Source: Halobacteriales archaeon YIM A00010 (GTDB lineage Archaea > Halobacteriota > Halobacteria > Halobacteriales > Haloarculaceae). Taken from it: 64,000 nt of DNA. The notes beneath the pieces are model-generated. The model was given only the letters and a program-made list of their open reading frames with translations. It had not been told where the DNA came from and made no database searches. How positions within the stretch are numbered: position 1 is the first letter of the stretch; each line of letters begins with the position of its first letter. The stretch covers positions 310,001 to 374,000 of the forward strand of contig JAKCFJ010000002.1 of the NCBI GenBank assembly GCA_025041175.1, given 5' to 3'. Below, piece by piece: positions 29,327-52,846 of the stretch. A program made the position numbers and the translations under genes.

Positions 29327-29328
29327 CA

Positions 29329-30204: not shown

Positions 30205-30225
30205 GAGCGCTTCGATGGATTGGAA

Positions 30226-31146
30226 ATGATCGAAAATCGGGATCTCCGGGGTTCGCTCGCGGCGTACGCGACGCTGGTTCGTCTCCCGAACCTCTTTACG
30301 GCCCCGCCGGATATCGTGCTCGGTGTGACGCTCGCAGTCGGTGCCGGCGGGGTCGCTACCGACGCCGTTACTGTTGGTGGACTCGCGGTTGCCTCTGTAC
30401 TGCTGTATGCCGCCGGAACGACGCTCAACGACTTCTTCGATGCGAGCGAAGACGCCCGCGAGCGTCCCGAACGGCCGATCCCGTCGGGCGACGTGAGCCG
30501 TCCCCGGGCGCTCGGGTTCGGCCTCGCGTTACTCCTCGCTGGCATCGTGATCGCTTTTATCGCCGCCGGAACCGCCGCTGGTGTGGTGTCTGGTGTGCTC
30601 GCGCTCACTATTCTGCTCTACGACGGCATGCTCAAAGGATCGGCTGTCGGTTTCTTGGCGATGGGAGCAAGCAGAGGGCTCAACGTTCTCCTCGGCGTGA
30701 CGGCAGCACTCCTGCCCACTTCGCTTCCTCTGTGGGCAGTTGGCGTCCCCGTTACCGTCGCCATCTTCATCGCGGGCGTGACGTACACGGCAGAAAGCGA
30801 GACCCGAAAAAGCGACCGAACCGTCGTCCTGCCCGCGATCGGCGGCGTTGTCGTCGCCGCGCTCGGGGTCGGTGGCCTGCTCATCGTCCGTTCTCCACGA
30901 TCGGTCACCGTCGTTTTCGCCCTGCTCCTCCTCGCGGGTTTTCTCGGCTGGACAGGCCGGGCGCTGCGTTCGGCGTACGAGACACCGACACCGGAGTCCA
31001 TCGGGCCGGCTATTGGCGTGTGCGTGCTCGGATTGACCGTGCTTGACGGCGCGTTCGCTGCGGCTATCGATCCCGGCTCGGCGCTCGTGATAGTGGCGTT
31101 CCTCGTCCCCGCACTAGGATTCTCTCGGGCAATTAGCGTCAGCTAA
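30226..31146 (+). CDS. UbiA-family prenyltransferase (EboC-like)
   Basis: This 306-residue integral membrane protein has about nine helices. The first aspartate-rich motif is intact (NDFFDASEDARERPERPIPSG). The second is reduced to LLYDGMLKGSAVG, as often seen in SCO3242/EboC-type relatives. It would transfer a prenyl group onto an acceptor, possibly the product of the cyclase and isomerase genes next to it. The ATG at 30226 (MIENRDLRG) is preferred to the TTG six bases upstream. It is the last gene of the plus-strand half of the cluster. Confidence 0.88.
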   Translation: MIENRDLRGSLAAYATLVRLPNLFTAPPDIVLGVTLAVGAGGVATDAVTVGGLAVASVLLYAAGTTLNDFFDASEDARERPERPIPSGDVSRPRALGFGLALLLAGIVIAFIAAGTAAGVVSGVLALTILLYDGMLKGSAVGFLAMGASRGLNVLLGVTAALLPTSLPLWAVGVPVTVAIFIAGVTYTAESETRKSDRTVVLPAIGGVVVAALGVGGLLIVRSPRSVTVVFALLLLAGFLGWTGRALRSAYETPTPESIGPAIGVCVLGLTVLDGAFAAAIDPGSALVIVAFLVPALGFSRAISVS

Positions 31147-34809: not shown

Positions 34810-34991
34810 ATTCCTCACTACAACCAGATAGTGATCCATCATTATACATCCTCTTGCTGCAAATAATGCTGGTATTCGATGACAAGAATAAACAACATTT
34901 AAATATAATTGGTAAATAAATCCCAAATCATCTAACGTTATCCGCTAGCCATCACGCGAAATGAAGGCTTTAGCGCAGCGTGTCGGGTGGA

Positions 34992-36734
34992 TTACTTATC
35001 GGTCCCTCTGTCGTCACCGTTCTTCCGTCCCTGTCCGCGCCCTCGTCCCTGCCCTTGTCCTCGTCCTTGGCCCTGTCCACGTCCTTGCCCCTTTCCTCGT
35101 CCCTGCCCTCGTCCGGCGGTCACTTCGAAGCGAAGCATCATCTTGTTGTCCTCGTGTTCGAGCATATGACAATGCCAGGGGAATTCCCCCTTGTAGCCAT
35201 CAAAGCGCGTGATGATTCGCACTGTTTCGTCCGGTTCGACCCGAACAGTATCCTTCTGTCCGCGCTCGTTTGGATCGGGAGCGTCGGTTCCGTCCGGTCC
35301 ACGTCCGATCACTCTGAATGTGACGAGGTGAAGGTGGATCGGATGCGAGCCACTCGTGTTGTTTGTGAATTCCCATATCTCAGTCGTTCCGAGCTGCGGT
35401 CGTACGATCGCGTCCTCGTCACCGAATCCGGTCCCGTTCAATTGGTACGTGATTAACTCGTCTTTCACAGCCGAATCAAGACTCATTTTCCGGGTCTCGA
35501 TCGCGCTGTTTTTGTTGAACGTATGGTGGGACGGGAGCTTCAGATTCGTTGGATCCGCGCTGTCGTCGACCGGATTTACAGTCGGGTCGGTGACTCGAAT
35601 CTGCAGGAGTTCGCTGAGATCACTCCCCGAGTTTTCGCCCACATACGGTAGCTCGGCGTTGTTGGTGAGCGTGAACGTTTCGCCCGCGTGCTTGGAGAAA
35701 TCAACAATGACTTCCCCGCGCTCGAACGCTTGGAGAACGAGCGAATCGAGGTCCCCAGCTGGTCCGATCGGGACCACCGACTCCAAAAACCCGTGGTCGG
35801 GAGCGATCTGATGTAGGGTCGGGATGCCCTGACTGGATTCGTTCCTGAGTTGCAGGCTGAACGTGCGATGGTTCGCACCGTTCACTATCCGGAAGCGATA
35901 TCGACGGGGTTCGACCTCCAGATACGGCCACACAGCTCCGTTGACAACCGCCGTATCGCCAGCAAACGTCGGCGTCCACGACTCCGGGTAGTCCAACGAC
36001 CCATCCGAGTTGAACGACTTATCTTGCAGCAAGAGCGGGATATCGTACTCACCGCTCGGTAAGTCAAGCTTCGCTTCCGATTGGCTCCGGATGGAGTACA
36101 GGCCGACGAGTCCGGCGTAGGCGTTGAGCCGAACGATACCAAGCGTGTGGTCGTGGTACGTCGATGTCAACCTCGATTGGCGCATCGGGAGCTCGTGCCA
36201 CTGATCGGTACCGCGCGGGCCCTCAACACCGTCGGGAGACGTCCACATATCAGCTTGACCATCGTTTTCGGGAGCGACGTTAAGCCCGTGAAAATGAGTC
36301 ACCGTCCGAACCTCCGGAACGGGAACGGACGCATCGTACCCAGGATGGTTCTCGGCCGTCGTTCCACCGATCCGTTCGTCGACGTCTAAGAGGTGATTGG
36401 TCGGGAGGTGACTGTTGTCAAAGTGTACCTGTATCCGCTGATTCCGCCGCGACTCGATGAGCGGTCCAGGATAGGCGCTGTCGAAGCCCCAGAGCGTGGT
36501 ATCTGGAAGGTGTGGGTGGAGATTTTGCGCGAATTCCCGCAATGATATCTCATAGGAATCGGCCCCGTTTCGTTTCCCATCAGGCTCTCGAACGTCTGGA
36601 ATCGGTAGCGGCTGTACGTATTTTTCGAGGTTCAGGGATTGCGCGGCTACCCTGCTCGATGTTTGCGGGATCGACCCGGCTATTCCTAGGTATGCACCAG
36701 CTTGGAGCAAGCGGCGTCTGGATAGTTTCTTCAT
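34992..36734 (-). CDS. Tat-exported multicopper oxidase (CotA/bilirubin-oxidase type)
   Basis: This 580-residue protein has three cupredoxin-like domains. After the Tat signal (LSRRRLLQAGAY) come the copper motifs THFHG, TYHDHTLG, GSHPIHLHLV and FPWHCHMLEHEDNKMM, which supply the type 1, 2 and 3 copper ligands. The final Met gives a classic type 1 site. The protein oxidises donors and reduces O2 to water outside the cell. The tail (about residues 540-580) is an unusual, basic Gly/Gln/Arg low-complexity run (GRGQGRGKGQG...). The gene precedes the PQQ dehydrogenase on the same strand, and the fused cupredoxins there are plausible electron donors. Confidence 0.93.
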   Translation of the reverse strand: MKKLSRRRLLQAGAYLGIAGSIPQTSSRVAAQSLNLEKYVQPLPIPDVREPDGKRNGADSYEISLREFAQNLHPHLPDTTLWGFDSAYPGPLIESRRNQRIQVHFDNSHLPTNHLLDVDERIGGTTAENHPGYDASVPVPEVRTVTHFHGLNVAPENDGQADMWTSPDGVEGPRGTDQWHELPMRQSRLTSTYHDHTLGIVRLNAYAGLVGLYSIRSQSEAKLDLPSGEYDIPLLLQDKSFNSDGSLDYPESWTPTFAGDTAVVNGAVWPYLEVEPRRYRFRIVNGANHRTFSLQLRNESSQGIPTLHQIAPDHGFLESVVPIGPAGDLDSLVLQAFERGEVIVDFSKHAGETFTLTNNAELPYVGENSGSDLSELLQIRVTDPTVNPVDDSADPTNLKLPSHHTFNKNSAIETRKMSLDSAVKDELITYQLNGTGFGDEDAIVRPQLGTTEIWEFTNNTSGSHPIHLHLVTFRVIGRGPDGTDAPDPNERGQKDTVRVEPDETVRIITRFDGYKGEFPWHCHMLEHEDNKMMLRFEVTAGRGQGRGKGQGRGQGQGRGQGQGRGRGQGRKNGDDRGTDK

Positions 36735-37065: not shown

Positions 37066-37914
37066 ATGGTTCAACTCGCGTTCTCTACGAACGCCTACAC
37101 TCGCTTCGGACTCGCGGAGGCCATTCGACGCATCGCGGACTGTGGGTACGACGGCGTCGAGCTGTTGGCTGATGTTCCCCACGCATATCTTCCGGAATTC
37201 GACGACGACCGCGAAGAACTCCACGAAACCCTCGAAGCGACCGGAATCTCCGTCTCGAACATCAACGCGAACACCGCAGCGGGCTACTACGACGACGCTC
37301 CGGACTCCTCGTTTTTCGATCCGACGCTCATTACCGACGACGACGAGGAACGGGCGTGGCGCGTCTCCTACACGAAAGACGCGATCGATCTCGCTGGGGC
37401 GGTTGGCGCACCGGCCGTCTGTGTCGCTACGGGCCGTCCCGAGCCGGGAAATCCGCCCGAGCAAGCCAGAGAGTACCTTCTCGACTCGCTGCACGAGATT
37501 CTCGACCACGCCGAATCGGTGGGTGTCGACGTTGGGATCGAATTCGAACCGGAACTCCTCATCGAGTGCACCGACGAAGTCCTCGACCTCATCGATGTGG
37601 TCGGCCGCGACGCGCTTGGGGTCAACCTCGACATCGGCCACGCAGCCGTCTACGGCGAGGATCCCGCTGAAAGCGTTCGTCAGTGCGCTGGACAGATCAC
37701 GGGGGTCCACGTCGAGGACATCGTCGGTGGTCGACGGGGAAAACACTACCATCGAGTCCCTGGAGAGGGGGACCTGAATTTCGAAGCGATCTTCCGGACG
37801 CTCGACGATATCGGCTACGACGGCTTTGCGACGCTGGAGCTGTACACGTATCCTGATGCTCCAGACCGGGCTGCCCAACGATCCCTCGACGTGCTCAGAC
37901 AGTACACTCCCTAA
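37066..37914 (+). CDS. Xylose-isomerase-like TIM-barrel protein, cytosolic
   Basis: This is a 282-residue AP-endonuclease-2-type barrel: MVQLAFSTNAYTRFGLAEAIRRIADCGYDGVELL at the start, metal-binding residues in DVGIEFEPELLIE, GVNLDIGHAAVYG and ITGVHVEDIVGG, and the last Glu in FATLELYTYPD. It is a clear paralogue of the ebo-like barrel at 29329-30204. I take the ATG at 37066; the longer frame from 36751 is not protein-like. It probably isomerises or epimerises a sugar or keto-sugar; the partner genes suggest oxidised sugars. Confidence 0.88.
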   Translation: MVQLAFSTNAYTRFGLAEAIRRIADCGYDGVELLADVPHAYLPEFDDDREELHETLEATGISVSNINANTAAGYYDDAPDSSFFDPTLITDDDEERAWRVSYTKDAIDLAGAVGAPAVCVATGRPEPGNPPEQAREYLLDSLHEILDHAESVGVDVGIEFEPELLIECTDEVLDLIDVVGRDALGVNLDIGHAAVYGEDPAESVRQCAGQITGVHVEDIVGGRRGKHYHRVPGEGDLNFEAIFRTLDDIGYDGFATLELYTYPDAPDRAAQRSLDVLRQYTP

Positions 37915-38360: not shown

Positions 38361-38372
38361 AAATATTTATAT
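38361..38372 (+). promoter_or_regulatory. TATA box of the BMP-type ABC transporter operon
   Basis: The element aaatatttatat is followed by the ATG at 38401 about 30-35 bases later. This supports the start at 38401 and a nearly leaderless transcript. Confidence 0.65.
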
Positions 38373-38400
38373 GTGGAAGAGTAACATCTCGTCGGATAAT

Positions 38401-39537
38401 ATGACTGGTTATTCGAATACAGATACGGAATATGAGCACGTTTACAGACAGGAATCGTCCGGTGTTAATCGGCGTCGTTTTCTCACTACAGGAGCTGCTC
38501 TCGTCGGGGGTATGAGTCTCGCTGGCTGTCTCGGTGGTGACGATTCGGATGACAGCGGTGGCTCCGGAGACGGAACGAACATCGCGATCGTCTCGAGTCC
38601 TGCTGGTTTCGACGACAACGCGTTCAACGACCTCGCGCTCGGGGGGCTTGAGAGCGCCAAGGAAGACCACGAGATCGAGATCAACCAGGTCGAGGAGACC
38701 CAACAGGCACAGTACCAATCGACTCAGTCGGAGCTCGCTCAAAGCGGTGAGTACGGTCTCATCGTGCTGGTCTCGTACAATCATACCGAGGCACTGACCC
38801 AAAACGCCGCGGACTACCCCGACCAGAACTGGATGCTCATCAACGACCACGTTGAAGAAGACAACGTCGCGGGCTACATCTGGGCCAATCATCAGATGTC
38901 CTATCTAGGGGGCGTTCTTGCGGGCACGATGACCACCGAGGAATTCTCCGAGGGAAGCGGCGTGACGGCCCCATCGAGCCCCCAAATCGGCTTCGTCGGC
39001 GGTGTCGACGAATCGCTTATCAACGCGTACGAGCGGTCATACGTCGCCGGCGCTGAGTGGGTCAACGGGGATGTCGAGGTCGATGTCGGCTACATTGGCA
39101 ACTACACCGACACGGACACGGCGGCCGACATCGCCAGCTCACAGTACGGTGCTGGTGCCGACATCGTGTATCACGCCGCCGCGGCTGCGGGCCGTGGTGT
39201 CTTCGAGGCCGCACAGGCCGAAGGTCGGTACGCCATCGGTGTCGATTCCGATCAGTCCCAGGCGCTCCCCGACTTCCAGGACGTTATCCTCGGATCCGCC
39301 GTCAAATACATCAACGAGGGGACTCGGGAGGCCGCAACGGCGGTCGCCGAAGACGACTTCGGGAGCATCACCGGCAACAACACCCTGTCACTCGAGCAGG
39401 AGGCCGTCGACTGCGTGATTGGTCAGGCGTTCGAGGGGAACCTCCCGGATGCCGTCGGTCAAAACATACAGGAAGCCAAGCAGGGGATCCTCGACGGCGA
39501 TATCACGGTTCCCTGTGCTGCGACCGGGTGTAACTAA
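38401..39537 (+). CDS. BMP-family ABC transporter substrate-binding lipoprotein
   Basis: This 378-residue protein has a Tat motif (NRRRFLTTGAAL) and a lipobox ending in LAGC, followed by an acidic linker. The mature part is a BMP/PnrA-like periplasmic-binding fold: IAIVSSPAGFDDNAFNDLALGGLESAKED, QIGFVGGVDESLINAYERSYVAG and YAIGVDSDQSQALPDFQDVILGSAVK. BMP-family proteins bind nucleosides or related compounds, but members linked to sugar-like substrates are known. It is the first gene of a four-gene operon with the two-domain ATPase and two permeases. Confidence 0.92.
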   Translation: MTGYSNTDTEYEHVYRQESSGVNRRRFLTTGAALVGGMSLAGCLGGDDSDDSGGSGDGTNIAIVSSPAGFDDNAFNDLALGGLESAKEDHEIEINQVEETQQAQYQSTQSELAQSGEYGLIVLVSYNHTEALTQNAADYPDQNWMLINDHVEEDNVAGYIWANHQMSYLGGVLAGTMTTEEFSEGSGVTAPSSPQIGFVGGVDESLINAYERSYVAGAEWVNGDVEVDVGYIGNYTDTDTAADIASSQYGAGADIVYHAAAAAGRGVFEAAQAEGRYAIGVDSDQSQALPDFQDVILGSAVKYINEGTREAATAVAEDDFGSITGNNTLSLEQEAVDCVIGQAFEGNLPDAVGQNIQEAKQGILDGDITVPCAATGCN

Positions 39538-39574
39538 CCTCACGTATATATGTCGGGATTACTGCATTCACGCC

Positions 39575-41251
39575 ATGAGTAGAGATAGTCCCCAGGAGCC
39601 TGCGGTCCGCCTCGAGGGCATCACCAAACGCTTCGGTGATGTTGTGGCTAACGACGATATCGACTTCACGCTCGAGCGAGGCACGGTCCACACCCTGCTG
39701 GGTGAAAACGGATCGGGGAAGACGACGCTAATGAGCGTTCTTTATGGACTGTACGACCAGGACAAGGGAACGATTCACGTCGACGGCGAGTCACGTGAAT
39801 TCGACGCCCCACGGGATGCGATAGACGCAGGCGTCGGGATGATCCACCAGCACTTCCAGCTGGTCGAACCGATGACTGTTCTGCAAAATATCATTTTGGG
39901 ACACGAACCGACATCGAACGGGTTGGTAGACGAATCGTCCGCCCGCGAGGATATCGAGGCGATCTGCTCGCGCTACGGGTTCGACATCGATCAGCATCTC
40001 GATACCCCGGTCCGTAACATCGATCTCGGTGCCCGCCAGCGCGTCGAGATCGTCAAAACCCTTTATCGGGGCGCCGAGATCCTCATTTTCGATGAACCGA
40101 CGGCAGTCCTAACGCCACAGGAAATAGATCAGCTCCTCGAGATGATGACTGAGCTGACCGAGACCGGCTGCTCGCTGGTCTTTATCACTCACAAGCTCGA
40201 CGAGGCACTCTCGGTCGCCGATCAGATCACTGTCCTTCGTGACGGGGAGGGCGTCGATACCGTGGCTGTCCCAGAAACCACCGAACAGGAGCTCGCGCGC
40301 ATGATGGTCGGTCGAGAGGTGAAGTTCGATCGTGCGGCCCGCGAAACCACGCCCGGTGCCCCCGTCTTCGGGGTCGATGGCGTGCGAGTCGACGGGGATC
40401 GGGGTCGCGAGCGGGTCAGTGGTGTCGACTTCACCGTTCGAGCGGGCGAGATTCTCGGCATTGCGGGCGTCCAAGGTAACGGCCAGTCCGAGCTGATCGA
40501 GGGGATTACTGGACTGCGACCCCTGACGGCGGGGACAGTCCGTTTTGATGGCAACGATATCACCGGGATGAGCCGGCGTCGGCGCATCGAATCGGGGATC
40601 GCCTACATCCCCGAGGATCGCCAAACTGAGGGACTAGTTCAAGACTACAGCCTGGTCCACAATGCGTTGCTTGGCAACCAGACGATCAGCCCGTACACTA
40701 CTCACGGGTTCGTCGATTGGGGTGCGGTTCGTGACCACGCCGAGGAGATCATCGAGGAGTACGACGTCCAGCCACCGAACCCCGATACCGATGCGATGTC
40801 TCTGTCCGGTGGCAATCAACAGAAGTTCATTGTCGGGCGGGAAATTGAGCACGATCCGGACGTCATGATAGCCTCTCACCCGACTCGCGGGGTCGACATC
40901 GGGTCGATCGAATTCATCCACAACCGGCTGATAGAACTGCGTAACGAGGGACTCGCGGTCGTGGTCGTCTCCTCGAAGCTCGAGGAGATCCAGCAGCTCG
41001 CCGATCGTATCGCGGTTATGTACGAAGGCGCGTTTATCGATGTCGTCGATCCCGACACCATCACCGAGGAGGAACTCGGTCTCCTGATGGCCGGCCGCGG
41101 CCGTGACGAGGACAGCGATGTGAACCCCCGACCACCGGACGCGGATGAAAGCGACCGAGCCACGACAACAGGAGATGAGACGGGAGCCCCGCTCCGAGAT
41201 GAGGACGATCGACCAGGTACAGACTCCCATAACGGGGGCGTGCAGACGTGA
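39575..41251 (+). CDS. ABC transporter ATP-binding protein, duplicated ATPase (sugar/nucleoside type)
   Basis: This 558-residue protein has two ATPase halves. The first has Walker A GENGSGKT, the signature-region NIDLGARQRVEIVKTL and Walker B ILIFDEPTAVLT. The second has a degenerate P-loop (GVQGNGQSE) and LSGGNQQKFIVGREI, then ASHPTRGVDIGS. This matches the RbsA/YufO-type proteins of BMP importers. The ATG at 39575 is used; the longer frame overlaps the binding-protein gene. The last about 60 residues are an acidic/Thr-rich, probably disordered tail. Its TGA overlaps the GTG of the first permease. Confidence 0.93.
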   Translation: MSRDSPQEPAVRLEGITKRFGDVVANDDIDFTLERGTVHTLLGENGSGKTTLMSVLYGLYDQDKGTIHVDGESREFDAPRDAIDAGVGMIHQHFQLVEPMTVLQNIILGHEPTSNGLVDESSAREDIEAICSRYGFDIDQHLDTPVRNIDLGARQRVEIVKTLYRGAEILIFDEPTAVLTPQEIDQLLEMMTELTETGCSLVFITHKLDEALSVADQITVLRDGEGVDTVAVPETTEQELARMMVGREVKFDRAARETTPGAPVFGVDGVRVDGDRGRERVSGVDFTVRAGEILGIAGVQGNGQSELIEGITGLRPLTAGTVRFDGNDITGMSRRRRIESGIAYIPEDRQTEGLVQDYSLVHNALLGNQTISPYTTHGFVDWGAVRDHAEEIIEEYDVQPPNPDTDAMSLSGGNQQKFIVGREIEHDPDVMIASHPTRGVDIGSIEFIHNRLIELRNEGLAVVVVSSKLEEIQQLADRIAVMYEGAFIDVVDPDTITEEELGLLMAGRGRDEDSDVNPRPPDADESDRATTTGDETGAPLRDEDDRPGTDSHNGGVQT

Positions 41252-42381
41252 GCAGCCCTGATTCGAGCGTTGCCCGGGACGTTCTTGATCGCGCCGCCGC
41301 TGCAATGTTGAAAATGTCGTTTATCGAACGATTAGCCGTCTCAACGGTTGCAACGGTGTTGGCACTGCTGGTTGGGTTGGTCGTCGTGGCTGTAACGGGA
41401 TACGACCCGGTCGTATTCAGCCGTAATCTGCTCGAAGGGTCCGTTGGCAGTGAGGCTGCTATCGCACGGACGCTCATGTTCACGACGCTGTTTATCCTGA
41501 CTGGCGTCTCCGTTGCGATCGCCTTCCGGGCTGGCGTGTTCAACATTGGTGTTCAGGGGCAGTTCGTCATCGGTGGGTTTGCGACGGTGCTTGCCGTTCT
41601 TAAGACTGCTCCGTTGCTCCCCGAGGGGACGATCGGCGGTGTTGTACTCCTGATCGTCGGCACTCTCGCGGCCATCGTCGCCGGTGGTGTGTACGCAGCG
41701 GTACCCGGTATCCTGAAAGCGTACGGTGGCGCAAACGAGATCGTCACGACGATCATGCTGAACTTCATCGCGATCGGGGCCGTCGGGTGGCTCGTCGAAG
41801 GCCCGTTCCGGGGGGAAGGACAGTCCGCGCCGAACACGGAGCGACTCCCGGAGTACGTCGGGTTACCCCAACTCATCTATGATTCTCCCAGCTTCTCGAT
41901 CATCGGCCTGGGCATCGCACTCGCGGTAGCCGCACTGATCGCTGTTCTCCTGCGCCGGACCAGCTTCGGTTACGACATGGTTACCAGTGGCCATCAGGAA
42001 TCCGCCGCGGGGTATGCGGGCGTCGATGCCAAGCGAATGATCGTTGCGACGATGACCGTCTCCGGGATGGTCGCTGGGATCGCGGGTGCGGTCTTCACGA
42101 TCATGATCCAGGGCTACTACAGCGACCCAGCCGGTATCGGGACCTATGGCTACGATGCGATCGCCGTTAGCCTGTTGGCGGCGAACAATCCGCTCGGGGC
42201 TATCCCAGCCGGCCTCCTGTTCGGTGGTCTCGATTCCGCTGGCTCCTACATCGGCATCAGCAGCGACGTGCCGGCGCAGTTGATCGATGGGATCATCGGT
42301 CTCGTCGTCCTGTTCATCTCTGCCCCGGAGCTGTTCCGGATGGCCGCAAAGCGAACCGGGCTCGGGGGTGACGAGCAGTGA
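41248..42381 (+). CDS. BMP-type ABC transporter permease 1 (YufP-like)
   Basis: This 377-residue membrane protein has about 9-10 helices and the BPD_transp_2 motifs RAGVFNIGVQGQFVIGGFATVLAV, GGANEIVTTIMLNFIAIGAVGWLVEGPF and LLAANNPLGAIPAGLLFGGLDSAG. The start is a GTG that overlaps the preceding stop by 4 bases (GTGA), so translation is coupled. Confidence 0.93.
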   Translation: MSSPDSSVARDVLDRAAAAMLKMSFIERLAVSTVATVLALLVGLVVVAVTGYDPVVFSRNLLEGSVGSEAAIARTLMFTTLFILTGVSVAIAFRAGVFNIGVQGQFVIGGFATVLAVLKTAPLLPEGTIGGVVLLIVGTLAAIVAGGVYAAVPGILKAYGGANEIVTTIMLNFIAIGAVGWLVEGPFRGEGQSAPNTERLPEYVGLPQLIYDSPSFSIIGLGIALAVAALIAVLLRRTSFGYDMVTSGHQESAAGYAGVDAKRMIVATMTVSGMVAGIAGAVFTIMIQGYYSDPAGIGTYGYDAIAVSLLAANNPLGAIPAGLLFGGLDSAGSYIGISSDVPAQLIDGIIGLVVLFISAPELFRMAAKRTGLGGDEQ

Positions 42382-43427
42382 CCGTCCTCGATCGTGCGGC
42401 CCGGAACCGTGTTCGGCTCGGGGCTGGCGCTGTGATCGTCCTCCTCGGCGTGATACTGATCACCTGGCTGGATCTGCCACTGTCGGATCTCTTCACCGTG
42501 GGCTTTCTTAGCCGATCGCTCCAGGCGGCGGCCCCGATCGCGCTCACAGCGATCGGTGGGCTGTACGCCGAGAAAAGCGGCGTGTTCAACATCGGCGTTG
42601 AAGGCTTCATGATCTTCGGCGCGGTCAACACGGCAGCGCTCACGTGGCTCATCGGAGGCGAGACGGCCGGCCAGGGTGCTCTCTGGATGGCCATACTCGC
42701 ATCGCTGGTAGTCGTCTCGGTGTACGCCGTGCTCTTCGCTGTGTTGGTGATCCGGTACAAGGCCGATCAGATCGTGGCGGGCCTGGCGGTTTGGTTTATC
42801 GGTCTCGGCTTCGGACCGTTTATGGCTGTGCTCCTCTGGGGCAGTCGGAACAGCCCCGGGCTCGTGAGCGTCGACAACCTAACGGTTCCGGGACTTTCGG
42901 AGCTTCCGGTCGTCGGGCCACTGTTGTTCGACGCCTCTCCCTTGGTGCTTCTCACCGTTCTCGTGACTGTTGGGGCCTGGGTGGTTCTCTATCACACCCG
43001 CTATGGCTACTGGATCCAGGCAGCCGGCGAGAATCCCGAAGCGCTGGACACGGCGGGCGTTAGCGTGGCGCGCGTGCGCTATGCAGCCGTCGTCTTCTCG
43101 GGTGTGATGGCTGGCTTGGGTGGAGCCGTCCTCCTAGCCCACGCAGGCTCGTTCACTGGTACTGGTGATACGATGGTTAACGGGCGTGGGTGGATCGGGA
43201 TCGTCGCCTACCTGTTTGGCAACTACAATCCGATCGGGGCCGCCGCCGCGGCGCTGCTGTTCGGCGGGCTAGACATGCTACAGATCCAGTTCCAGACGGT
43301 CGGGATCGATCTGCCCAACCGGCTGGTCAACCTGTTCCCGTATCTGGCTGTGATCGTCGTGCTCACGATCTGGGGTTCGACGCGCGTGCCGTCGTCTGTT
43401 GGTGAACCCTACGAAAGCGAAGAGTGA
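42378..43427 (+). CDS. BMP-type ABC transporter permease 2 (YufQ-like)
   Basis: This is a 349-residue membrane protein with about nine helices: TAIGGLYAEKSGVFNIGVEGFMIFGAVNTAA, VRYAAVVFSGVMAGLGGAVLLAHAGSFTG and LFGNYNPIGAAAAALLFGGLDMLQIQFQ. GTG start, 4-base overlap with permease 1. It pairs with that gene to form the membrane channel. Confidence 0.93.
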   Translation: MTVLDRAARNRVRLGAGAVIVLLGVILITWLDLPLSDLFTVGFLSRSLQAAAPIALTAIGGLYAEKSGVFNIGVEGFMIFGAVNTAALTWLIGGETAGQGALWMAILASLVVVSVYAVLFAVLVIRYKADQIVAGLAVWFIGLGFGPFMAVLLWGSRNSPGLVSVDNLTVPGLSELPVVGPLLFDASPLVLLTVLVTVGAWVVLYHTRYGYWIQAAGENPEALDTAGVSVARVRYAAVVFSGVMAGLGGAVLLAHAGSFTGTGDTMVNGRGWIGIVAYLFGNYNPIGAAAAALLFGGLDMLQIQFQTVGIDLPNRLVNLFPYLAVIVVLTIWGSTRVPSSVGEPYESEE

Positions 43428-43801: not shown

Positions 43802-44995
43802 ATGAGCGACAATTGCAAATTCACACGTCGATCCGTACTGGGCGCAGCGGGACTAACAATAGCGAGTGGTCTCACCGCTCCGGTCGCAGCGGACCACGAT
43901 GTCGGTACTGGTGATCAATATCCTGAGACCTGCGACGGCCCGGGGTACAACGATACCCCTCGACTCCCCGATTCACCGTGGCAGGTCCACGACCCGTGTC
44001 GTCCCCAGCCACCGATCGTTGATCCGGGAGAGCCCGCGTTCTCCGAATCTCCGGCGGACGCCACAGTTCTCATCGGCGATGGCTCCGATGGTGATATCAC
44101 CCTCGATGCCTGGGAGCAACCCGACGGCAGCGAGCCCGCATGGGACACTACCGACAGTTATGCGGAGGTAAATGGCGGGTCAATCCAGACGACGAGCGAT
44201 ATCGGTAGCGCTCACTATCACGTCGAATGGCGGGCCCCCTCGGATGTCGAAGGGAGTGGTCAACACCCCGGCAACAGCGGGGCTTTCCTCGCAAATCGCT
44301 ACGAGGTCCAGATCTTGAACAACTACGAGAACCCGACGTATGCGGATGGCTATGCCGCGGCGGTCTACGGCCAGCATCCCCCGCTGGTCAACGCCAGCCG
44401 TCCTCCGGGAGAGTGGCAGTCGTATGATATTTTCTGGCACGCACCACGCTTTACCGACGACGGGGACCTGGACTCTCCCGGTGTCCTGACCGTCTACTGG
44501 AACGGCGTGTTGGTCCAGAGCCAGACCGTCCTTAACGGACCTACCCGCCACCGGGATATCGCTGACTACAGCCAACACTCACCAGCAGCCCCGCTCAGCC
44601 TCCAGGATCACGGCCAGGCGGTTCGGTACCGGAATGTTTGGTATCGGTCTCTCCCGGTTCCCTCTTCAGTAATCACGTTCGACGACGACCAACTCACCGC
44701 CGAAAACACCACTAGCACCCTCGAGGCCTCGCTCACCAATCCCTACGACTCGGCGATGACCCACGGCGAGGTCACCCTCACCGCGTCGAGCGAGTCGGGC
44801 GTCGAGGTCACGCCCCACGAGACGAGTTTCCATCCCCTCACGCCCGGCAGCTCCCAGTCGGTGTCGTGGGAGGTGACACGCCCGAACGCCGAGAGCGGAC
44901 CCCACTTGTTGAGCATCTCGGCGTCCTATATGGTCGAAGGCGAACAACAGACGATCGACTTCCGCGTCCCTATCTATCCCGAACCGTCGCCCTAG
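43802..44995 (+). CDS. Tat-exported DUF1080 (3-keto-disaccharide hydrolase family) protein
   Basis: This 397-residue secreted protein has a Tat signal (FTRRSVLGAAG...) and an Ala-rich h-region. The core is a DUF1080/GH16-like jelly roll (about residues 75-285): HYHVEWRAPSDVEGSGQHPGNSGAFL, NRYEVQILNNYENPTYADG and GEWQSYDIFWHAPRF are typical of the family. The last about 110 residues look like a CARDB/Ig-like domain (FDDDQLTAENTTSTLEASLTN). The Pfam family is now named 3-keto-disaccharide hydrolase. It stands alone after the BMP importer and before the second oxidation locus. Confidence 0.88.
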   Translation: MSDNCKFTRRSVLGAAGLTIASGLTAPVAADHDVGTGDQYPETCDGPGYNDTPRLPDSPWQVHDPCRPQPPIVDPGEPAFSESPADATVLIGDGSDGDITLDAWEQPDGSEPAWDTTDSYAEVNGGSIQTTSDIGSAHYHVEWRAPSDVEGSGQHPGNSGAFLANRYEVQILNNYENPTYADGYAAAVYGQHPPLVNASRPPGEWQSYDIFWHAPRFTDDGDLDSPGVLTVYWNGVLVQSQTVLNGPTRHRDIADYSQHSPAAPLSLQDHGQAVRYRNVWYRSLPVPSSVITFDDDQLTAENTTSTLEASLTNPYDSAMTHGEVTLTASSESGVEVTPHETSFHPLTPGSSQSVSWEVTRPNAESGPHLLSISASYMVEGEQQTIDFRVPIYPEPSP

Positions 44996-45372: not shown

Positions 45373-46368
45373 TCAGGAGGGGCTGTAGAGCTTGGCGGGG
45401 TGGGTGTCTGCGCCTTCGATGGCGCAGATACCGCCAGGTTGCCAGGGCTGGTTCAGCTTTTCGAGCCAGTAGGCACCAATCCGCATCGACTCGAGGGGAT
45501 CCTCCGGGTCGTCGTGTTCAAAGACGAGATAATCGGTGTCCCCGGCGTTGCGGAAGGCCGTCGCTACCGCGCGCATGTTGACGTCACCCTCGTCAATATC
45601 GGTGAACTCCTGCGGATCGACGGTCATGTTCTTTGCGTGAATCGACCTGACACTCGTCGGGTGCTCCGCGACGAAGCTGATCGGATCCCGGCCGGCGACC
45701 AATGCCCAGCCGGCATCGAGCTGGATCTGGACCTGATCGTCGAGGTTCTCGGCAAAGACATCGTAGCCGGTCGTGTCGCCGATCTCCGCGAACTCGGCAT
45801 CGTGGTTGTGGTGCCCGAACTCGAGGTCGTGCTCGGCCAGCAGGTCCGCTGCCGCGTTACACCGCTCGGCGAAGTCGATGACTGCGGCTTCGTCGCTCCA
45901 ATCGTCGGGACCAGCACCCGGGTCGATGAGGGTGGGGGTGCCGAACTGCGAGAAGGTGTTGGCCATTGCCTCGGTGTTGTTTTCGACGGCGCTGATACTG
46001 ATGTGGGCGCTGCTCATCCCGAGACCGGTGTCGTCCATCGCTTCGAGGATCGGGTCCACGTCGGTATCGGCGCCGACCGAATAGGGCTCGAAAGCGTCGT
46101 AGCCAACGTCGGCGGCCTCCTGGATCAACTCCGGGATCGAGAGGTCGGTGCTCCGGTACGAGTAGAACTGCGTGGAGATGGGAACGTCCTCGTCCGTCTC
46201 CTGCGCGGCGGTCGCCCGTGCCTGCCTGGCGTCGCCTTGCGCGCTGACCGAGCCGGATGTGATCGCAATACCCATGCTAGCCGCACCGATCCCCTGCAGG
46301 ACTTGCCGGCGATTCACGTTGAGATACTCGCTGTCTGTACTATTCTGCGCACCCGATTTTCGTGGCAT
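45373..46368 (-). CDS. Tat-exported xylose-isomerase-like TIM-barrel protein
   Basis: This 331-residue protein has a Tat motif (NVNRRQVLQGIGAA), unusual for this family. The mature part is an AP-endonuclease-2-like barrel: ISTQFYSYRSTDLSIPELIQEAADVGYDAFEPY, DLEFGHHNHDAEF, QIQLDAGWALVAGRDP and YLVFEHDDPEDP, with metal-binding Glu/His/Asp in the usual places. Exported members occur beside DUF1080 and ThuA proteins in bacteria that process 3-keto sugars. It is divergent from the ThuA-DUF1080-dehydrogenase gene. The ATG at 46368 is preferred to 46377. Confidence 0.88.
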   Translation of the reverse strand: MPRKSGAQNSTDSEYLNVNRRQVLQGIGAASMGIAITSGSVSAQGDARQARATAAQETDEDVPISTQFYSYRSTDLSIPELIQEAADVGYDAFEPYSVGADTDVDPILEAMDDTGLGMSSAHISISAVENNTEAMANTFSQFGTPTLIDPGAGPDDWSDEAAVIDFAERCNAAADLLAEHDLEFGHHNHDAEFAEIGDTTGYDVFAENLDDQVQIQLDAGWALVAGRDPISFVAEHPTSVRSIHAKNMTVDPQEFTDIDEGDVNMRAVATAFRNAGDTDYLVFEHDDPEDPLESMRIGAYWLEKLNQPWQPGGICAIEGADTHPAKLYSPS

Positions 46369-46499
46369 CGCGTACATGTTTTCACCAAAGGTATTAATTG
46401 TTTGGATCGGGATGATGAGTGTTTGGTTTAGAGCGCTGTACCAGCGAGCGAAGATCTGGAGCTATGATTCGGCTGATTGAGCCGCGTCCCTGTCCAGAC

Positions 46500-46829: not shown

Positions 46830-46873
46830 ATAAAAACCATAATCTTTTTCTACAAGCATCTGGCATACATCAT

Positions 46874-49800
46874 ATGAGCAACCATAATAGTGATCTAGAT
46901 GTTAATACATCGATCGGGATATCGAGGCGAAGCATTCTCCAGACAATCGGCGGACTCGGCGCGGCCGGGCTCGCCGGTGTCGGCTCGGCCACTACCGGCG
47001 GAATGGGACAGTTGCAGACCCAAGGCCCGAGCCTCGACGAGAGCCCCGCTATCCTCGTGTTCTCGGCAACTGCGGGCTATCGCCACGGGGCGATCCCCAC
47101 CGGCAACGACACGATCAAGACACTGGCCACCGAGATCGGTAACGAGAACGACACCGAGATCACCGTCGATGTCATCGAAAGCGACGCGTCACAGTTCCCC
47201 ACCAGCGCCGACGAACTGTCACAGTACGACGTGGTGGTCTGGAACAGCACCACTGGGGACGTCCTGAACGACCAACAGCAGACCGCCTTCGAGCAGTACA
47301 TCCAGAACGGTGGCGGATATATGGGTATTCACGCCGCCGCCGACACCGAGTACGACTGGGAGTTCTACGGCGACCTCGTCGGCGCCTACTTCGAGAGCCA
47401 TCCCTCCCAGCAGACTGCCACCGTCAACGTCACGGATCAGAGCCATTCCTCCACGGATCACCTTCCCGCAACGTGGGAACGCTACGACGAGTGGTACAAC
47501 TACCAGGAAAACCCCCGAGCGGACGTCAACGTCCTCGCTACCCTCGACGAATCCTCCTACGACGAAGGCGATGGTACCCCTGACCAGGCCGACGATCACC
47601 CCATCGCCTGGTATCACACCTACGAGGGTGCCCGCTCCTGGTACACTGGTATGGGCCACACGACCGACAGCTACAGTAACGAGGAGTTCCGCCAGCACCT
47701 CAAGGGCGGCCTCATGTGGGCTGCCGGCTACGTAAACGAGTGGATCCAACTGTTCAACGGCGAGAACCTCGACAACTGGACGCGAAAATTCTCGGGGCAC
47801 GCTCCCGGTGAAGGATACAAGAATACGTTCACCGTCGAAGACGGCCTGCTGACGGTCAATTACGATCAGTACGACCAATGGAACAGCACCTTCGGCCATC
47901 TCTTCTACAACGAGCAGGAGTTCTCGCATTACATTCTTCGCGCGGAGTATCGCTTCGTCGGCGAGCAAGTCCCCGAGGCCCCCAGTTGGGCCGTCCGGAA
48001 CAACGGCCTGATGCTCCACGGCCAAACGCCCGAGGAAATGGACATCGACCAGGACTATCCCGACTCCATCGAGGTCCAATTGCTCGGTGGGGCGGCCGAC
48101 AGCGACACCGAGCGCACGACCGCCAACGTCTGTACCCCAGGCACCCACATCGTCATGGACGGTGAACTGCACACGCAACACTGTACCTCCTCGAGTTCCG
48201 ACACCTACCGGGGGGACGAGTGGGTGACCGTCACCATCGTCGTGCGTGGCAACGAATCCATTCACCACATCATCGAGGACGACGGTGTGGTCATGAACTA
48301 TACCAACCCTCAGCTCGAGGACGGCACCCCGCTCAGTGATGGCACGATCTCCATTCAGTCCGAAAGCCATCCCACCCAGTTTCGCTCGATCGAAGTCAAG
48401 CCGCTCGATCCGACCGACGACGACCCCATCTGGAGTAGCTACACGAAGACGGAACTGGCTTCCAGCCTGCAGGAGCCGATGGCGCTCGATATCGCGCCCG
48501 ATGGACGGGTATTCTTCACCAATCGCGGTGTGGATGGCGGAACGGCGCGGGTCGGCGTGATCGATCCCGAAACCACCGAGATCACCACCGCCCTCGAACT
48601 CGACGTCTATATCAGCGGCGAGGACGGCCTGCAGGGCATCGTCCTCGATCCGGAGTTCGAGCAAAATGGCTGGGTGTATCTGTATTACTCCGTCCCGACC
48701 AGCGAGACCGGCGACGATCAGTACGACCGGTTGTCACGATTCACGGTCGATGGCGATACGATCGATCCTGATTCCGAAACCGAAATTCTCACCGTACCAT
48801 CGGGGCCCGATCCGTGTTGTCACGTGGGTGGTGACCTCGAGTTCGGTCCGGAGGGGAACCTCTACATCTCGACCGGTGACGACACGAGTCCGTTCCAATC
48901 CAGCGGTTACACGCCGATCGACGAACGTGACGGCCGTGAACTGTTCGATGCCCAGCGCTCGGCGAGCAACACCAACGATCTCCGGGGGAACATCCTCCGG
49001 ATCACGCCCCAAGACGACGGTAGTTACACGGTGCCCGACGGCAATCTCTTCACTGGCGAAGAGTACGCCGATGCGCGCGCAAACAACAAAGTCAAAACCG
49101 AGATCTACGTCATGGGCTGTCGCAACCCCTTCCGGATGGGCGTCGATCAAGAAACCGGGGTCCTGTACTGGGGTGATTACGGACCCGACGCACGGTTGTG
49201 GGACGCTCAGCGCGGGCCCCCCGGAATTGTGGAGTTCAACCGCGCTAGCGACCCCGGCTACTACGGGTGGCCGTACGTGATCGGACCGAACATCCCCTAC
49301 ATCGACGGGCAGTTCGCGACTGACGATCAGGGAGATAGGATCTTCAACTCATCCGGCGAGCCGTTCGATCCACAGAACCTGGTCAACGATTCCCCGAACA
49401 ACGACGGGCTCACGCAACTGCCAGAACCTAAAGAGCCAGCGCTTTGGTACACGTACTCGTGGGACGCGCTCCTGGATTCGCCGCCCGAGTACGCCCGGGA
49501 GTACTTGCCCGACGAGCCCCCCTTCCCGCAACTCGAAGGCGGGGCTCCGATGGGCGGGCCGGTCTACCGCTCCGATGGTGAGTCAGCAGCACTGCCCGAA
49601 TATCTGGATGGTAAGCAGTTCATCGCGGAGTGGGGGGCGGACTGGATCAAGTACGTCTCCTATGGGGCCAACGGGGAGGTGCTCGACATTAACCCGTTCA
49701 TGCCCGACGAGACCTTCCTCTCGCCGATGGAGATGGCGATCGGACCGGAGGGGGCGATGTACCTCCTCGAGTACGGCCAAGGCTACGCAACGCCCGGAAC

Positions 49801-49981
49801 TCCAGACTCCGGCATCTACCGGATCGCTGGCGGCGCCGAAGGAGACGATGGCGACGGGCCGCCGAGCGAAGAACATGGCCCACCAGACCATGCGGGCGAA
49901 CAGGGCCCGCCGGACCACGCAGGCGAACAGGGCCCACCGGATCACGCAAATGGCAACGGCCCACCGAACAAAAAGAAGTAA
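46874..49981 (+). CDS. Tat-exported ThuA-DUF1080-PQQ-type sugar dehydrogenase fusion
   Basis: This is a 1035-residue secreted protein. Domains in order: Tat signal (GISRRSILQTIGG), ThuA (about residues 58-292; ILVFSATAGYRHGAIPTG, GIHAAADTEYDWEFYG), DUF1080 (about 293-515; EWIQLFNGENLDNWTRKF, SWAVRNNGLMLHGQ, DSIEVQLLGG), a sorbosone/glucose-dehydrogenase-like propeller (about 520-990; PCCHVGGDLEFGPEG, YISTGDDTSPF, YGWPYVIGPNIPY), and a short C-terminal run of GPPDHAG-type repeats. No cupredoxin is fused. The combination suggests oxidation of a sugar and hydrolysis of the keto-glycoside on one chain. The ATG at 46874 is used; longer frames enter the promoter. Confidence 0.9.
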   Translation: MSNHNSDLDVNTSIGISRRSILQTIGGLGAAGLAGVGSATTGGMGQLQTQGPSLDESPAILVFSATAGYRHGAIPTGNDTIKTLATEIGNENDTEITVDVIESDASQFPTSADELSQYDVVVWNSTTGDVLNDQQQTAFEQYIQNGGGYMGIHAAADTEYDWEFYGDLVGAYFESHPSQQTATVNVTDQSHSSTDHLPATWERYDEWYNYQENPRADVNVLATLDESSYDEGDGTPDQADDHPIAWYHTYEGARSWYTGMGHTTDSYSNEEFRQHLKGGLMWAAGYVNEWIQLFNGENLDNWTRKFSGHAPGEGYKNTFTVEDGLLTVNYDQYDQWNSTFGHLFYNEQEFSHYILRAEYRFVGEQVPEAPSWAVRNNGLMLHGQTPEEMDIDQDYPDSIEVQLLGGAADSDTERTTANVCTPGTHIVMDGELHTQHCTSSSSDTYRGDEWVTVTIVVRGNESIHHIIEDDGVVMNYTNPQLEDGTPLSDGTISIQSESHPTQFRSIEVKPLDPTDDDPIWSSYTKTELASSLQEPMALDIAPDGRVFFTNRGVDGGTARVGVIDPETTEITTALELDVYISGEDGLQGIVLDPEFEQNGWVYLYYSVPTSETGDDQYDRLSRFTVDGDTIDPDSETEILTVPSGPDPCCHVGGDLEFGPEGNLYISTGDDTSPFQSSGYTPIDERDGRELFDAQRSASNTNDLRGNILRITPQDDGSYTVPDGNLFTGEEYADARANNKVKTEIYVMGCRNPFRMGVDQETGVLYWGDYGPDARLWDAQRGPPGIVEFNRASDPGYYGWPYVIGPNIPYIDGQFATDDQGDRIFNSSGEPFDPQNLVNDSPNNDGLTQLPEPKEPALWYTYSWDALLDSPPEYAREYLPDEPPFPQLEGGAPMGGPVYRSDGESAALPEYLDGKQFIAEWGADWIKYVSYGANGEVLDINPFMPDETFLSPMEMAIGPEGAMYLLEYGQGYATPGTPDSGIYRIAGGAEGDDGDGPPSEEHGPPDHAGEQGPPDHAGEQGPPDHANGNGPPNKKK
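49860..49977 (+). repeat. GPPDHAG-type coding repeats, copy 2
   Basis: The last about 35 codons of the ThuA-DUF1080-dehydrogenase protein repeat EHGPPDHAGEQGPPDHAGEQ and similar units about four times, ending GPPNKKK. The same peptide unit occurs at the N-termini of the other two dehydrogenases (34500-34620 and 50190-50310). Confidence 0.85.
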
Positions 49982-50143: not shown

Positions 50144-52846
50144 ATGATAGAACTCGCAGCAGTATCCATCCAGGAGGATGAGAACGGCGAAGGTCCGCCG
50201 GATCATGCAGGTCCGCCAGACCATGCGGGCCCACCGGACCACGCAGGCGGATCTGGCGGTGGTCCGCCGGACCATGCGGGCCCGCCGGACCACGCCGGTC
50301 CACCAGACGACAATGAAGGCTCCCATGCGTGGGTAGGCGTTGCACCAGCGGCGATCGAAGACGAAACGAATCCGACCCTGGAACTGGTCGCGGGGCAAGA
50401 ACACACTATCGAATGGACGAACGAAGACGGGGCATCCCACAACTTCGTGATCGAGGACGCAAATGGCAACACCATCGTCGAGTCCGAGATCATGGATGCA
50501 GAAGGCGAAACGCAAACCGTCGAGTTCACCGCAAGCGAGGAGATGGCCGAATATTACTGCGCGCCCCATCCTCAAGAAATGCGAGGAGCCATCGAGGTTG
50601 AGGCGTCCCCGGAGGCTGGCTTCGAGGTGAGCAACCTTACTCCCACGGAGGCAACCGTCGAACAGGGCGACTCCCTCGACGTCTCCGCGACGATCACCAA
50701 CACCAGTGGTAGCGAAGGAACACAGGAAATCACCCTCCTCATCGACGACAACACTGTCGCCTCACAGGACCTTACCCTTGCTGGGGACGATAGCGCCACC
50801 GTTGCGTTCGAAGACGTCGAGACGGGCGGACTCGACCCGGCCGAGCACACCCACACCGTTGCCACCGCAGACGACGAGGCCAGTGGGACCCTCATCGTCG
50901 AGGAGAAGGTACACTGGAATCGCGACCTCGATGTCCCGCGCAATCCGGAGGAGGCCACCAATTGGGACAACTACAACGTCAGCACCGTCCTCTCGACGGG
51001 AACGCTCGCAAGCGAATACGACCTCCAGGACGGTGAGGAGGGCGAGTGGATGCAGATGGCCGTCGATCCCGAGGACCGCATCTGGGTCATCACCCGCGGT
51101 GCACCCTTCGTCTCGGATGGCGATGGGTACGCCGAGGTTGCGTGGATCGATCCGGCCTCTGGCGAGCACCAACTCGCGCTCGAGCTTCCCGTCATCTTCA
51201 GCGGTGCCGAAGTCGCGGACTCGGGAGAGACGGGCAAATCGCGCGAACTGGGCGGGCAGGGGATCGCCATCGACCCCAACTTCGAGGAGAACGGCTACGT
51301 CTACCTCATGTATCATCCGTCGAGTGGGGACCAGGTGCAGTGGGAGGACAACCCCTACAGCGACGAGATATACTCGGTCTACATGCGTGTTTCCCGGTTC
51401 GAGATGGCCGACGACGGAACGCTCGATGCCGACTCCGAGAAGATCGTCTTCAGAGTTCCCGAACAACTGCACACCTGCTGTCACCACGGCGCGTACCTCA
51501 CCTTCGGCAAGGGCCGCGAGCTCTACATCTCGACGGGCGACAACTCCAGCAACGTCGGGAACCCCGACGAGCTGGTCAACTGGTTCATGGGTGACGAGCG
51601 CCAGGGGATGGTCCACGGCCGGCCCGGTCCGGTCGCCGACGCTCAGCGCACCTCCGGAAACACGGCCGACAAGCGCGGCAAGATCCACCGGATCATCCTC
51701 AACGAGGACGGGAGCTACGACATCCCCGGGGGCAATCTCAAAGAACACTGGGAAACGGAGACCGGCGAGTCCTACTCCGAGGAGAAGTTCTTGCCGGAGA
51801 TCTACGTGATGGGGCTGCGCAACCCGTTCACCATCACCCACGACTCGCACACCGACTACCTCTGGACCGCCCACTACGGCAATGACGGCGATAGCATCAA
51901 CGAGCTGGGGGCGACGGGCTTTGGCGACTACCACCTGTGGTGCGAGCCGGGCAATGCCGGCTACCCCTGGTTCCGGGCGTACTACCCCTACCGCGACTAC
52001 GACTTCGAAACCGGGGAGGTCGGCCAGCCATTCTGGCCCGACAACCTCCGCAACGACTCGGTGAACAACACCGGGATCACGAACATCCCAAACGTCACCC
52101 CCGCGCTTCTCTGGCACCCCCAGAGCTTCACCGACTTCGAGAACCTCACCGGGATCCACCCGTGGCTGGACACGCCTCGCCCTGGCGAGATCACCTACCC
52201 CGAATTCGAGTCCGGCGGCTCGGCGGACGTCGGCGTGATCTACCGCTACTCCGGGGATTACGGCGAGAACGCGCTCGACCCATATTTCGACGGCAAGCCG
52301 TTCATCACGCGCCCGAGCAACTCGGGCGTCACTCGCTACGTCACGTTCAACGACGACGGCAGCATTGAGTTCGACGAGTTCCTTCCCGACGACGACACCA
52401 TCAGCGCCGCCTACGACATGAAGATTCTCTCCGACGGCCGGCTGGCCATCATGGGGATGTATTCGGGTCTCCACGTCGTTGACTATCAAGGTGACGGCGG
52501 TGGCGGTGGCGGCGGCGGGGGCGAGGGACTCGAGCCCGGAACCACGATCGAGCTGGGCGGCAAGATCTCCGAATGGGTCGGCCAAGCCCCGAGTTCGATC
52601 GGGGAGTCGAACCCGACGCTCACTCTCCAGGAAGGTGAGTCCTACACGGTCACGTGGGAGAACCTCGACGGGGTGATTCATGACTTCGTTCTCCTCGACA
52701 GCGAGGGCAGCGAGTTACAGGGTACGGAGGACGTGACCGAGCGAGGCGAAACAGCGACGCTCGAATTCACCGCCACCTCGGAGATGGCCGAGTACTACTG
52801 CTCGTACCACGCGAACACAATGCGTGGCACCATCGAGATCGTGTAG
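50144..52846 (+). CDS. PQQ-type sugar dehydrogenase with two cupredoxin domains, apparently lacking a signal peptide
   Basis: This 900-residue protein (ATG at 50144; a GTG at 50084 is possible) contains six PPDHAG repeats (about residues 16-58), a cupredoxin (60-155; SHNFVIEDANG, YYCAPHPQEM), a CARDB-like domain (about 157-252), a dehydrogenase propeller (about 270-780; TCCHHGAYLTFGKGRELYISTGDNSS) and, after a Gly9 linker, a second cupredoxin (VIHDFVLLD, YYCSYHANTM). Unlike its two relatives it shows no Tat or Sec signal, although the segment KMIELAAVSIQEDENGEG aligns with what follows the signal of the 31396-34809 protein. The signal-coding part seems to have been lost, so export is doubtful. 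It follows the preceding gene by about 160 bases with its own weak TATA. Confidence 0.85.
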   Translation: MIELAAVSIQEDENGEGPPDHAGPPDHAGPPDHAGGSGGGPPDHAGPPDHAGPPDDNEGSHAWVGVAPAAIEDETNPTLELVAGQEHTIEWTNEDGASHNFVIEDANGNTIVESEIMDAEGETQTVEFTASEEMAEYYCAPHPQEMRGAIEVEASPEAGFEVSNLTPTEATVEQGDSLDVSATITNTSGSEGTQEITLLIDDNTVASQDLTLAGDDSATVAFEDVETGGLDPAEHTHTVATADDEASGTLIVEEKVHWNRDLDVPRNPEEATNWDNYNVSTVLSTGTLASEYDLQDGEEGEWMQMAVDPEDRIWVITRGAPFVSDGDGYAEVAWIDPASGEHQLALELPVIFSGAEVADSGETGKSRELGGQGIAIDPNFEENGYVYLMYHPSSGDQVQWEDNPYSDEIYSVYMRVSRFEMADDGTLDADSEKIVFRVPEQLHTCCHHGAYLTFGKGRELYISTGDNSSNVGNPDELVNWFMGDERQGMVHGRPGPVADAQRTSGNTADKRGKIHRIILNEDGSYDIPGGNLKEHWETETGESYSEEKFLPEIYVMGLRNPFTITHDSHTDYLWTAHYGNDGDSINELGATGFGDYHLWCEPGNAGYPWFRAYYPYRDYDFETGEVGQPFWPDNLRNDSVNNTGITNIPNVTPALLWHPQSFTDFENLTGIHPWLDTPRPGEITYPEFESGGSADVGVIYRYSGDYGENALDPYFDGKPFITRPSNSGVTRYVTFNDDGSIEFDEFLPDDDTISAAYDMKILSDGRLAIMGMYSGLHVVDYQGDGGGGGGGGGEGLEPGTTIELGGKISEWVGQAPSSIGESNPTLTLQEGESYTVTWENLDGVIHDFVLLDSEGSELQGTEDVTERGETATLEFTATSEMAEYYCSYHANTMRGTIEIV
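50190..50310 (+). repeat. GPPDHAG-type coding repeats, copy 3
   Basis: Six PPDHAG units (two blocks of three split by GSGGG) are encoded near the start of the third dehydrogenase. At the DNA level the units are near-identical 18-base repeats (variants of ggtccgccggaccatgcg), so slippage can change their number. Confidence 0.85.

Follow-up and report, generated by a model that had tools for sequence, protein, structure and literature searches.

An exported ThuA-DUF1080-GSDH fusion protein in a haloarchaeon, with blue-copper partners and a possible role in 3-keto-glycoside chemistry

The fusion protein and its genome

A 64,000-nucleotide stretch of Halobacteriales archaeon YIM A00010 (GenBank assembly GCA_025041175.1, contig JAKCFJ010000002.1, positions 310,001 to 374,000; hereafter the window) encodes P0001, a protein with an export signal that joins ThuA, DUF1080 and GSDH domains in a single open reading frame (ORF). 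The frame (46571-49981, + strand) is uninterrupted, and translation from the ATG at 46874 yields 1035 residues. P0001 is made up of the following features:

46874..49981, + strand: P0001, exported, ThuA - DUF1080 - GSDH - PPDHA repeats (ORF and Pfam)
46874..47008, + strand: twin-arginine translocation (Tat)-like signal region, SRRSILQ plus a hydrophobic stretch (sequence; Pfam TAT_signal E 0.048, below its cut-off)
47051..47722, + strand: ThuA domain (Pfam PF06283, E 9e-73; PDB ThuA-like 4jqs/4e5v by profile and fold)
47738..48400, + strand: DUF1080 / 3keto-disac_hyd domain (Pfam PF06439, E 4e-31; weak profile match to PDB 3h3l)
48416..49837, + strand: GSDH β-propeller domain (Pfam PF07995, E 8e-31; fold matches 2ism, 3a9g, 1cq1)
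49871..49948, + strand: 27-bp tandem repeat encoding the C-terminal PPDHA repeats (sequence)

An initial annotation, made from the sequence alone, had described an exported polypeptide in which these three domains are fused, and the Pfam search bears this out by placing each above its curated cut-off. ThuA occupies residues 60-283 (245 bits against a gathering score of 33.4; profile positions 2-209 of 209), DUF1080 residues 289-509 (109 bits against 26.8; 1-187 of 187) and GSDH residues 532-803 (108 bits against 25). The GSDH match covers only profile positions 1-223 of 332; relatives nonetheless align to around residue 988. ThuA and GSDH are well placed in an AlphaFold model (pLDDT about 90). 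The exported location is supported by an RR motif followed by a hydrophobic stretch (SRRSILQTIGGLGAAGLAG), although the Pfam TAT_signal match is weak. The three-domain fusion in one exported ORF is real and its domains are intact. That it is an artefact of assembly or annotation has a negligible chance of being correct given the unbroken frame, and was rejected on finding a second copy, 76% identical across residues 1-989, on another contig.

The genome (5.97 Mb, seven contigs, 99.7% complete) contains three DUF1080, eight ThuA and seven GSDH matches. The paralogue of P0001, on contig 3, has the same domain order and also carries LamG, cupredoxin and dockerin-like domains. The cupredoxin-ThuA-GSDH arrangement is found in two other proteins, one of them with a second cupredoxin, and a fifth ThuA multidomain protein has the order ThuA-DUF7133-CBM-cupredoxin-dockerin. 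Two exported ThuA proteins (L019:3177-7808 and 8501-12469) terminate in cupredoxin and dockerin type I-like domains, the dockerin segment also being matched by two nearby ORFs. A small stand-alone ThuA protein with no obvious signal is encoded near a mandelate-racemase-type gene (window 16981-17706). The (G)PPDHA repeats, possibly a linker or metal-binding repeat, are common to several proteins of the system, both here and in relatives (window 49871-49948, 50191-50301 and 34545-34599; L020, around 9492-9543).

Relatives in Archaea and Bacteria

In a scan of 391 Halobacteria genomes, with two candidates scored per genome, this genome alone gave a match that spans the three domains within a single frame (two copies), and DUF1080 exceeded its cut-off in 15. 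Other haloarchaea have shuffled arrangements, including cupredoxin-DUF1080-GSDH-LamG-cupredoxin, TIM-DUF1080-DUF1080, GSDH-DUF1080 or DUF1080-GSDH, and cupredoxin-TIM. TIM-DUF1080-DUF1080 fusions are found at L053:12941-15238 and L056:1555-3885, and the Natronococcus one is annotated as a “family 16 glycoside hydrolase.”

Comparison with bacteria was made by a genome-contig scan covering the best 80 of 589 relatives; almost all of these 80 come from bacteria. ThuA and GSDH occur together in 74 ORFs of these 80 loci. These bacterial proteins (from Bacteroidota, Actinobacteria, Verrucomicrobia and others) resemble P0001 in having ThuA followed by GSDH, at 40-51% identity, and carry an electron carrier or glycan module behind GSDH (PKD-cytochrome c or CBM6). 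A CxxCH motif follows GSDH in 31 of the 74, and a cytochrome c Pfam domain is present in both of the CxxCH proteins scanned; a cupredoxin is found in two, both from Halorubrum. There is thus a swap of electron carrier, the haloarchaeal proteins having cupredoxins where the bacterial ones have cytochrome c.

DUF1080 is added in only two of the 74 ORFs, from Streptomyces sp. ODS25 (L136) and Phytoactinopolyspora halotolerans (L137). Like P0001 these hold all three domains, but in the order GSDH-ThuA-DUF1080 or ThuA-GSDH-...-DUF1080 and with another DUF1080 subtype; among the genomes searched, DUF1080 is sandwiched between ThuA and GSDH in this archaeon alone. A Streptomyces record has a ThuA-DUF1080 protein (by Pfam) adjoining a GSDH gene, and in a Nonomuraea record a ThuA protein, judged ThuA-DUF1080 by eye, does likewise. 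The nearest bacterial DUF1080 protein listed, from Runella (pRUNSL05), is 48% identical; its gene adjoins a TIM gene and one for a β-propeller-like/HEAT-like/CxxCH protein (propeller and HEAT labels by eye), and the Runella system differs in its separate genes and its cytochrome c. The view that the fusion is unique was rejected, since ThuA-GSDH fusions are plentiful in bacteria and all three domains occur together in two actinobacterial ORFs. The set is known and widespread in bacteria, and the archaeal novelty therefore lies in the position of DUF1080 between the other two domains and in the blue-copper partners. The bacterial spread, the cupredoxin partners, the paralogues and the linkage described below all go beyond the initial annotation.

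The case for 3-keto-glycoside chemistry

The neighboring genes include the following:

45373..46377, - strand: P0008, exported TIM barrel with AtOGE active-site residues H190, H192, D221, H247 and E287 (alignment, PDB match)
43802..44995, + strand: P0007, exported stand-alone DUF1080 protein (Pfam E 1e-28; PDB 4qhz E 1e-45)
50144..52846, + strand: P0006, PPDHA repeats - cupredoxin - GSDH - cupredoxin, the next gene downstream of P0001 (Pfam)
31396..34842, - strand: P0004, Tat - cupredoxin - ThuA - GSDH - cupredoxin (domain searches)
34992..36734, - strand: multicopper oxidase, PhsA/CueO-like (profile matches; recurs near relatives)
37066..37914, + strand: second cytoplasmic TIM barrel, E-x-E type, IolO-like (profile matches, alignment)
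38371..43427, + strand: BMP/PnrA-type ABC importer with binding protein, ATPase and two permeases (Pfam; same set by relatives)

Both the divergently encoded exported TIM barrel (P0008) and the second exported DUF1080 protein (P0007) had been recognized in the initial annotation. The top PDB match of P0008 is 8bvk (E 5e-16), AtOGE of Agrobacterium. AtOGE is a β-eliminase of 3-keto O-glucosides with metal ligands H132, D163, H189 and E233 and a catalytic H134, and the H134A variant is inactive (PMC10628242). All five residues are aligned and identical in P0008. They are kept in all nine exported haloarchaeal TIM barrels examined (P0008 and eight others) and in neither of the two cytoplasmic TIM barrels of the window, which were excluded from any 3-keto step because they have E-x-E in place of H-x-H. 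P0008 is the best evidence for the proposed 3-keto chemistry, since its best solved match is AtOGE and the five active-site residues are kept. Its site fits a lyase, and the same residue signature may also be present in hydratases of this clade.

The DUF1080 domain of P0001 has no phmmer match in the PDB. It is 75-79% identical across seven haloarchaeal copies, and 86 of the 126 positions invariant in haloarchaea are shared with the Runella protein. 3-Keto-disaccharides are the known or proposed substrates of the DUF1080 members BT2157 and CCNA_01705 (the latter periplasmic), and an endo-xanthanase/lichenase also carries the domain (PMC9007349). Because of this last enzyme, the name DUF1080 is by itself no proof of 3-keto chemistry; no mechanism paper on a characterized DUF1080 was found in the literature searched. 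The link of the system to 3-keto-glycoside chemistry suggested by the initial annotation is nonetheless supported at the level of sequence, by DUF1080 together with a TIM barrel bearing the complete AtOGE active site. Both features are shared with the 3-keto-glycoside pathway (AtOGE, BT2157, Caulobacter LacABC and CCNA_01705), including the His-x-His/Asp/His/Glu site of the TIM barrel, and part of the Caulobacter system is periplasmic. The archaeal host is a difference, as is GSDH/cupredoxin in place of a Gfo/Idh-, GlycDH- or LacABC-type dehydrogenase. No such C3 dehydrogenase was seen among the window proteins scanned (part of the ORFs, with Pfam and NCBIfam; no genome-wide search was made).

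What, then, does the GSDH domain contribute? It had been called a pyrroloquinoline quinone (PQQ) dehydrogenase, which is a label of the family; against the PQQ subfamily model NCBIfam TIGR03606 (glucose/sorbosone PQQ dehydrogenase) it scores 71 bits, below the cut-off of 434.55. The fold matches 2ism, 3a9g and 1cq1 are PQQ sugar (aldose) dehydrogenases, and His650, Arg750 and Asn751 are kept in 25 of 25 sequences. We take His650 to be the catalytic histidine and the Arg-Asn pair, together with an RxR motif, to be residues of the PQQ site. Right before this histidine (residues 648-650) is a vicinal Cys-Cys, present in most, not all, relatives, which recalls the vicinal disulfide of methanol dehydrogenase.

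Taken together, these data suggest, with about even confidence, that P0001 is a folded enzyme of three domains, exported as part of a haloarchaeal system in which glycosides are first oxidized and then broken by elimination instead of hydrolysis, with copper proteins as the wiring. Following Tat export, indicated by the RR signal, the GSDH β-propeller would withdraw two electrons from a hydroxyl group of the sugar and hand them to blue-copper domains, here probably those of P0006, as domain swaps and gene order suggest. The keto-glycoside may then be cleaved by β-elimination, by DUF1080 and/or by P0008, whose residues would suit this activity. ThuA might handle the keto-sugar intermediate by isomerization or hydration, which is a guess, and the conserved neighborhood points to uptake of the products via the adjacent BMP-type importer. 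This importer, the multicopper oxidase and exported TIM barrels recur around these genes in haloarchaea. The three domains are also joined or adjacent in independent arrangements (the actinobacterial ORFs, ThuA-DUF1080 fusions near GSDH and the haloarchaeal fusions), which also counts in favor of the scheme. P0006 lacks a recognizable signal peptide, with an in-frame stop just upstream of 50084. It may be carried out of the cell by a Tat partner, because a Natronococcus relative (L054:5172-7871), likewise without a signal peptide, lies downstream of a Tat-type TIM gene.

Several observations weigh against this scheme. The C-terminal RxR that 2ism has in its PQQ site is replaced by S/R-P-M, and a pqqC search of this nearly complete genome gave no match, the same search being above cut-off in four of 25 genomes as a positive control (24 of them reached via bacterial loci of the ThuA-GSDH family). 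A pqqE profile was uninformative, with a sub-cut-off match in every control genome. Use of PQQ by this GSDH is doubtful because RxR is replaced and pqqC was not found; an external supply of PQQ is possible. Characterized GSDH enzymes oxidize aldoses at C1 and are not known to oxidize C3, and we infer both C3 oxidation by this domain and its use of PQQ. This leaves unsupported the idea that each of the three domains belongs to 3-keto chemistry. Residues 290-517, spanning DUF1080, have a pLDDT below 50 in the AlphaFold model, with one relative row there. No cupredoxin was detected in some haloarchaeal ThuA-GSDH proteins (L065 and L066). No reductase or hydratase was identified for the system, and “complete oxidation and cleavage” of a glycoside outside the cell, as first proposed, exceeds the evidence. 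That such a route is undescribed in haloarchaea agrees with literature searches, which gave no description of one among the matches listed.

The Ebo/MIPS-like cluster and alternative readings

A further set of genes in the window (25718..31146, both strands), identified by profile matches, resembles the Ebo cluster:

25718-27076, - strand: phosphodiesterase
27073-28263, - strand: myo-inositol-1-phosphate synthase (MIPS)
28613-29326, + strand: TatD
29329-30204, + strand: TIM barrel
30226-31146, + strand: EboC-like UbiA

EboB-, EboC-, EboE- and EboF-like genes are present, with MIPS, another cyclitol former, in the place of EboD. The genes resembling EboC and EboE do not reach the NCBIfam thresholds (EboC at 179 against 250 bits), and neither EboA nor EboD was seen among the profile-scanned window proteins. 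TatD, the EboC-like UbiA, the TIM barrel, a PF01663 phosphodiesterase and an exported oxidative partner (ScyE) are shared with the Ebo cluster of scytonemin export and eustigmatophyte plastids, which differs in EboA, in EboD rather than MIPS and in the EboC and EboE scores. This five-gene set recurs around these genes in haloarchaea. In bacteria, seven of the 80 loci (six actinobacterial, one from Bacteroidota) have members of the set including UbiA, with no UbiA seen in the stretches examined at the other 73. No paper with both EboC and ThuA was among the matches listed in the literature search.

Linkage to such a cluster fits poorly with plain catabolism, since the relative that has been studied serves to export an intermediate of biosynthesis. 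Together with the cyclitol roles, it therefore raises the alternative that the exported enzymes finish the product of the cluster, or are themselves served by it. The Ebo/MIPS-like cluster would then make and export a metabolite derived from a cyclitol or sugar, which the exported ThuA/DUF1080/GSDH proteins would complete or recycle, as ScyE completes scytonemin in Nostoc following export that depends on Ebo, and these proteins would take no part in general glycoside catabolism; this is a tentative reading, with perhaps one chance in its favor for every few against. Besides the presence of the set inside the window, it draws on the distribution of the EboC-like UbiA. This gene is present in 56 of 391 Halobacteria genomes overall, whereas of the 12 genomes whose P0001 matches are strong (E <= 1.9e-70) 11 have it and only G104 does not; Fisher p is 2e-9, a value that ignores the relatedness of the genomes. 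A GSDH gene lies within 15 kb of the EboC-like gene in at least 18 of the 56, against about 1.2 expected, counting the matches listed plus five hand-added positions and assuming uniform placement in 4-Mb genomes. The actinobacterial neighbors are co-directional, MIPS at L136 beginning about 155 bp past the GSDH-ThuA-DUF1080 ORF. In Nostoc, ebo exports the scytonemin monomer for ScyE (PMC6282210), and EboD is a predicted sugar-phosphate cyclase with a product discussed as a cyclitol (PMC5133447), a role that MIPS could fill. However, an import-type transporter and glycan-binding or dockerin-like domains suit catabolism, and the five ThuA multidomain proteins in one genome, the incomplete Ebo complement, the sub-cut-off EboC and EboE scores and the 73 loci with no UbiA seen also speak against this alternative.

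It is unlikely, though conceivable, that P0001 performs no 3-keto chemistry at all, with DUF1080 a mere glycan-binding jelly roll and GSDH turning free aldoses into lactones by the usual oxidation at C1. The aldose dehydrogenases among the GSDH fold matches would suit this, as would LamG and CBM modules on relatives and PDB matches of the DUF1080 proteins whose names say no more than “putative glycosyl hydrolase” or “putative sugar hydrolase.” A binding module is harder to reconcile with the conservation of DUF1080, higher than in either of the other two domains (75-79% identity against 43-77% for GSDH, on differing row sets), and with its linkage to exported TIM barrels that have a β-eliminase active site.

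If oxidation followed by elimination is what P0001 and its partners carry out, haloarchaea would run an extracellular oxidation/β-elimination of sugars with blue-copper proteins for cytochrome c, a direct swap of electron carrier within one domain architecture. The lead with the greatest novelty is the Ebo link. A bolder and improbable extension is that Ebo-type clusters are paired with exported β-propeller oxidoreductases across Archaea and Bacteria, ScyE being one case of a general rule, and that the MIPS/EboC-like pathway supplies ThuA-DUF1080-GSDH enzymes with substrate or even a non-PQQ redox cofactor; the latter would explain both the missing pqqC in most ThuA-GSDH genomes tested and the altered PQQ site. 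The Ebo/MIPS pairing, seen in haloarchaea, Actinobacteria and one Bacteroidota genome, offers a testable handle on what Ebo clusters make or move, and on the cofactor of “PQQ” β-propellers in organisms unable to make PQQ.

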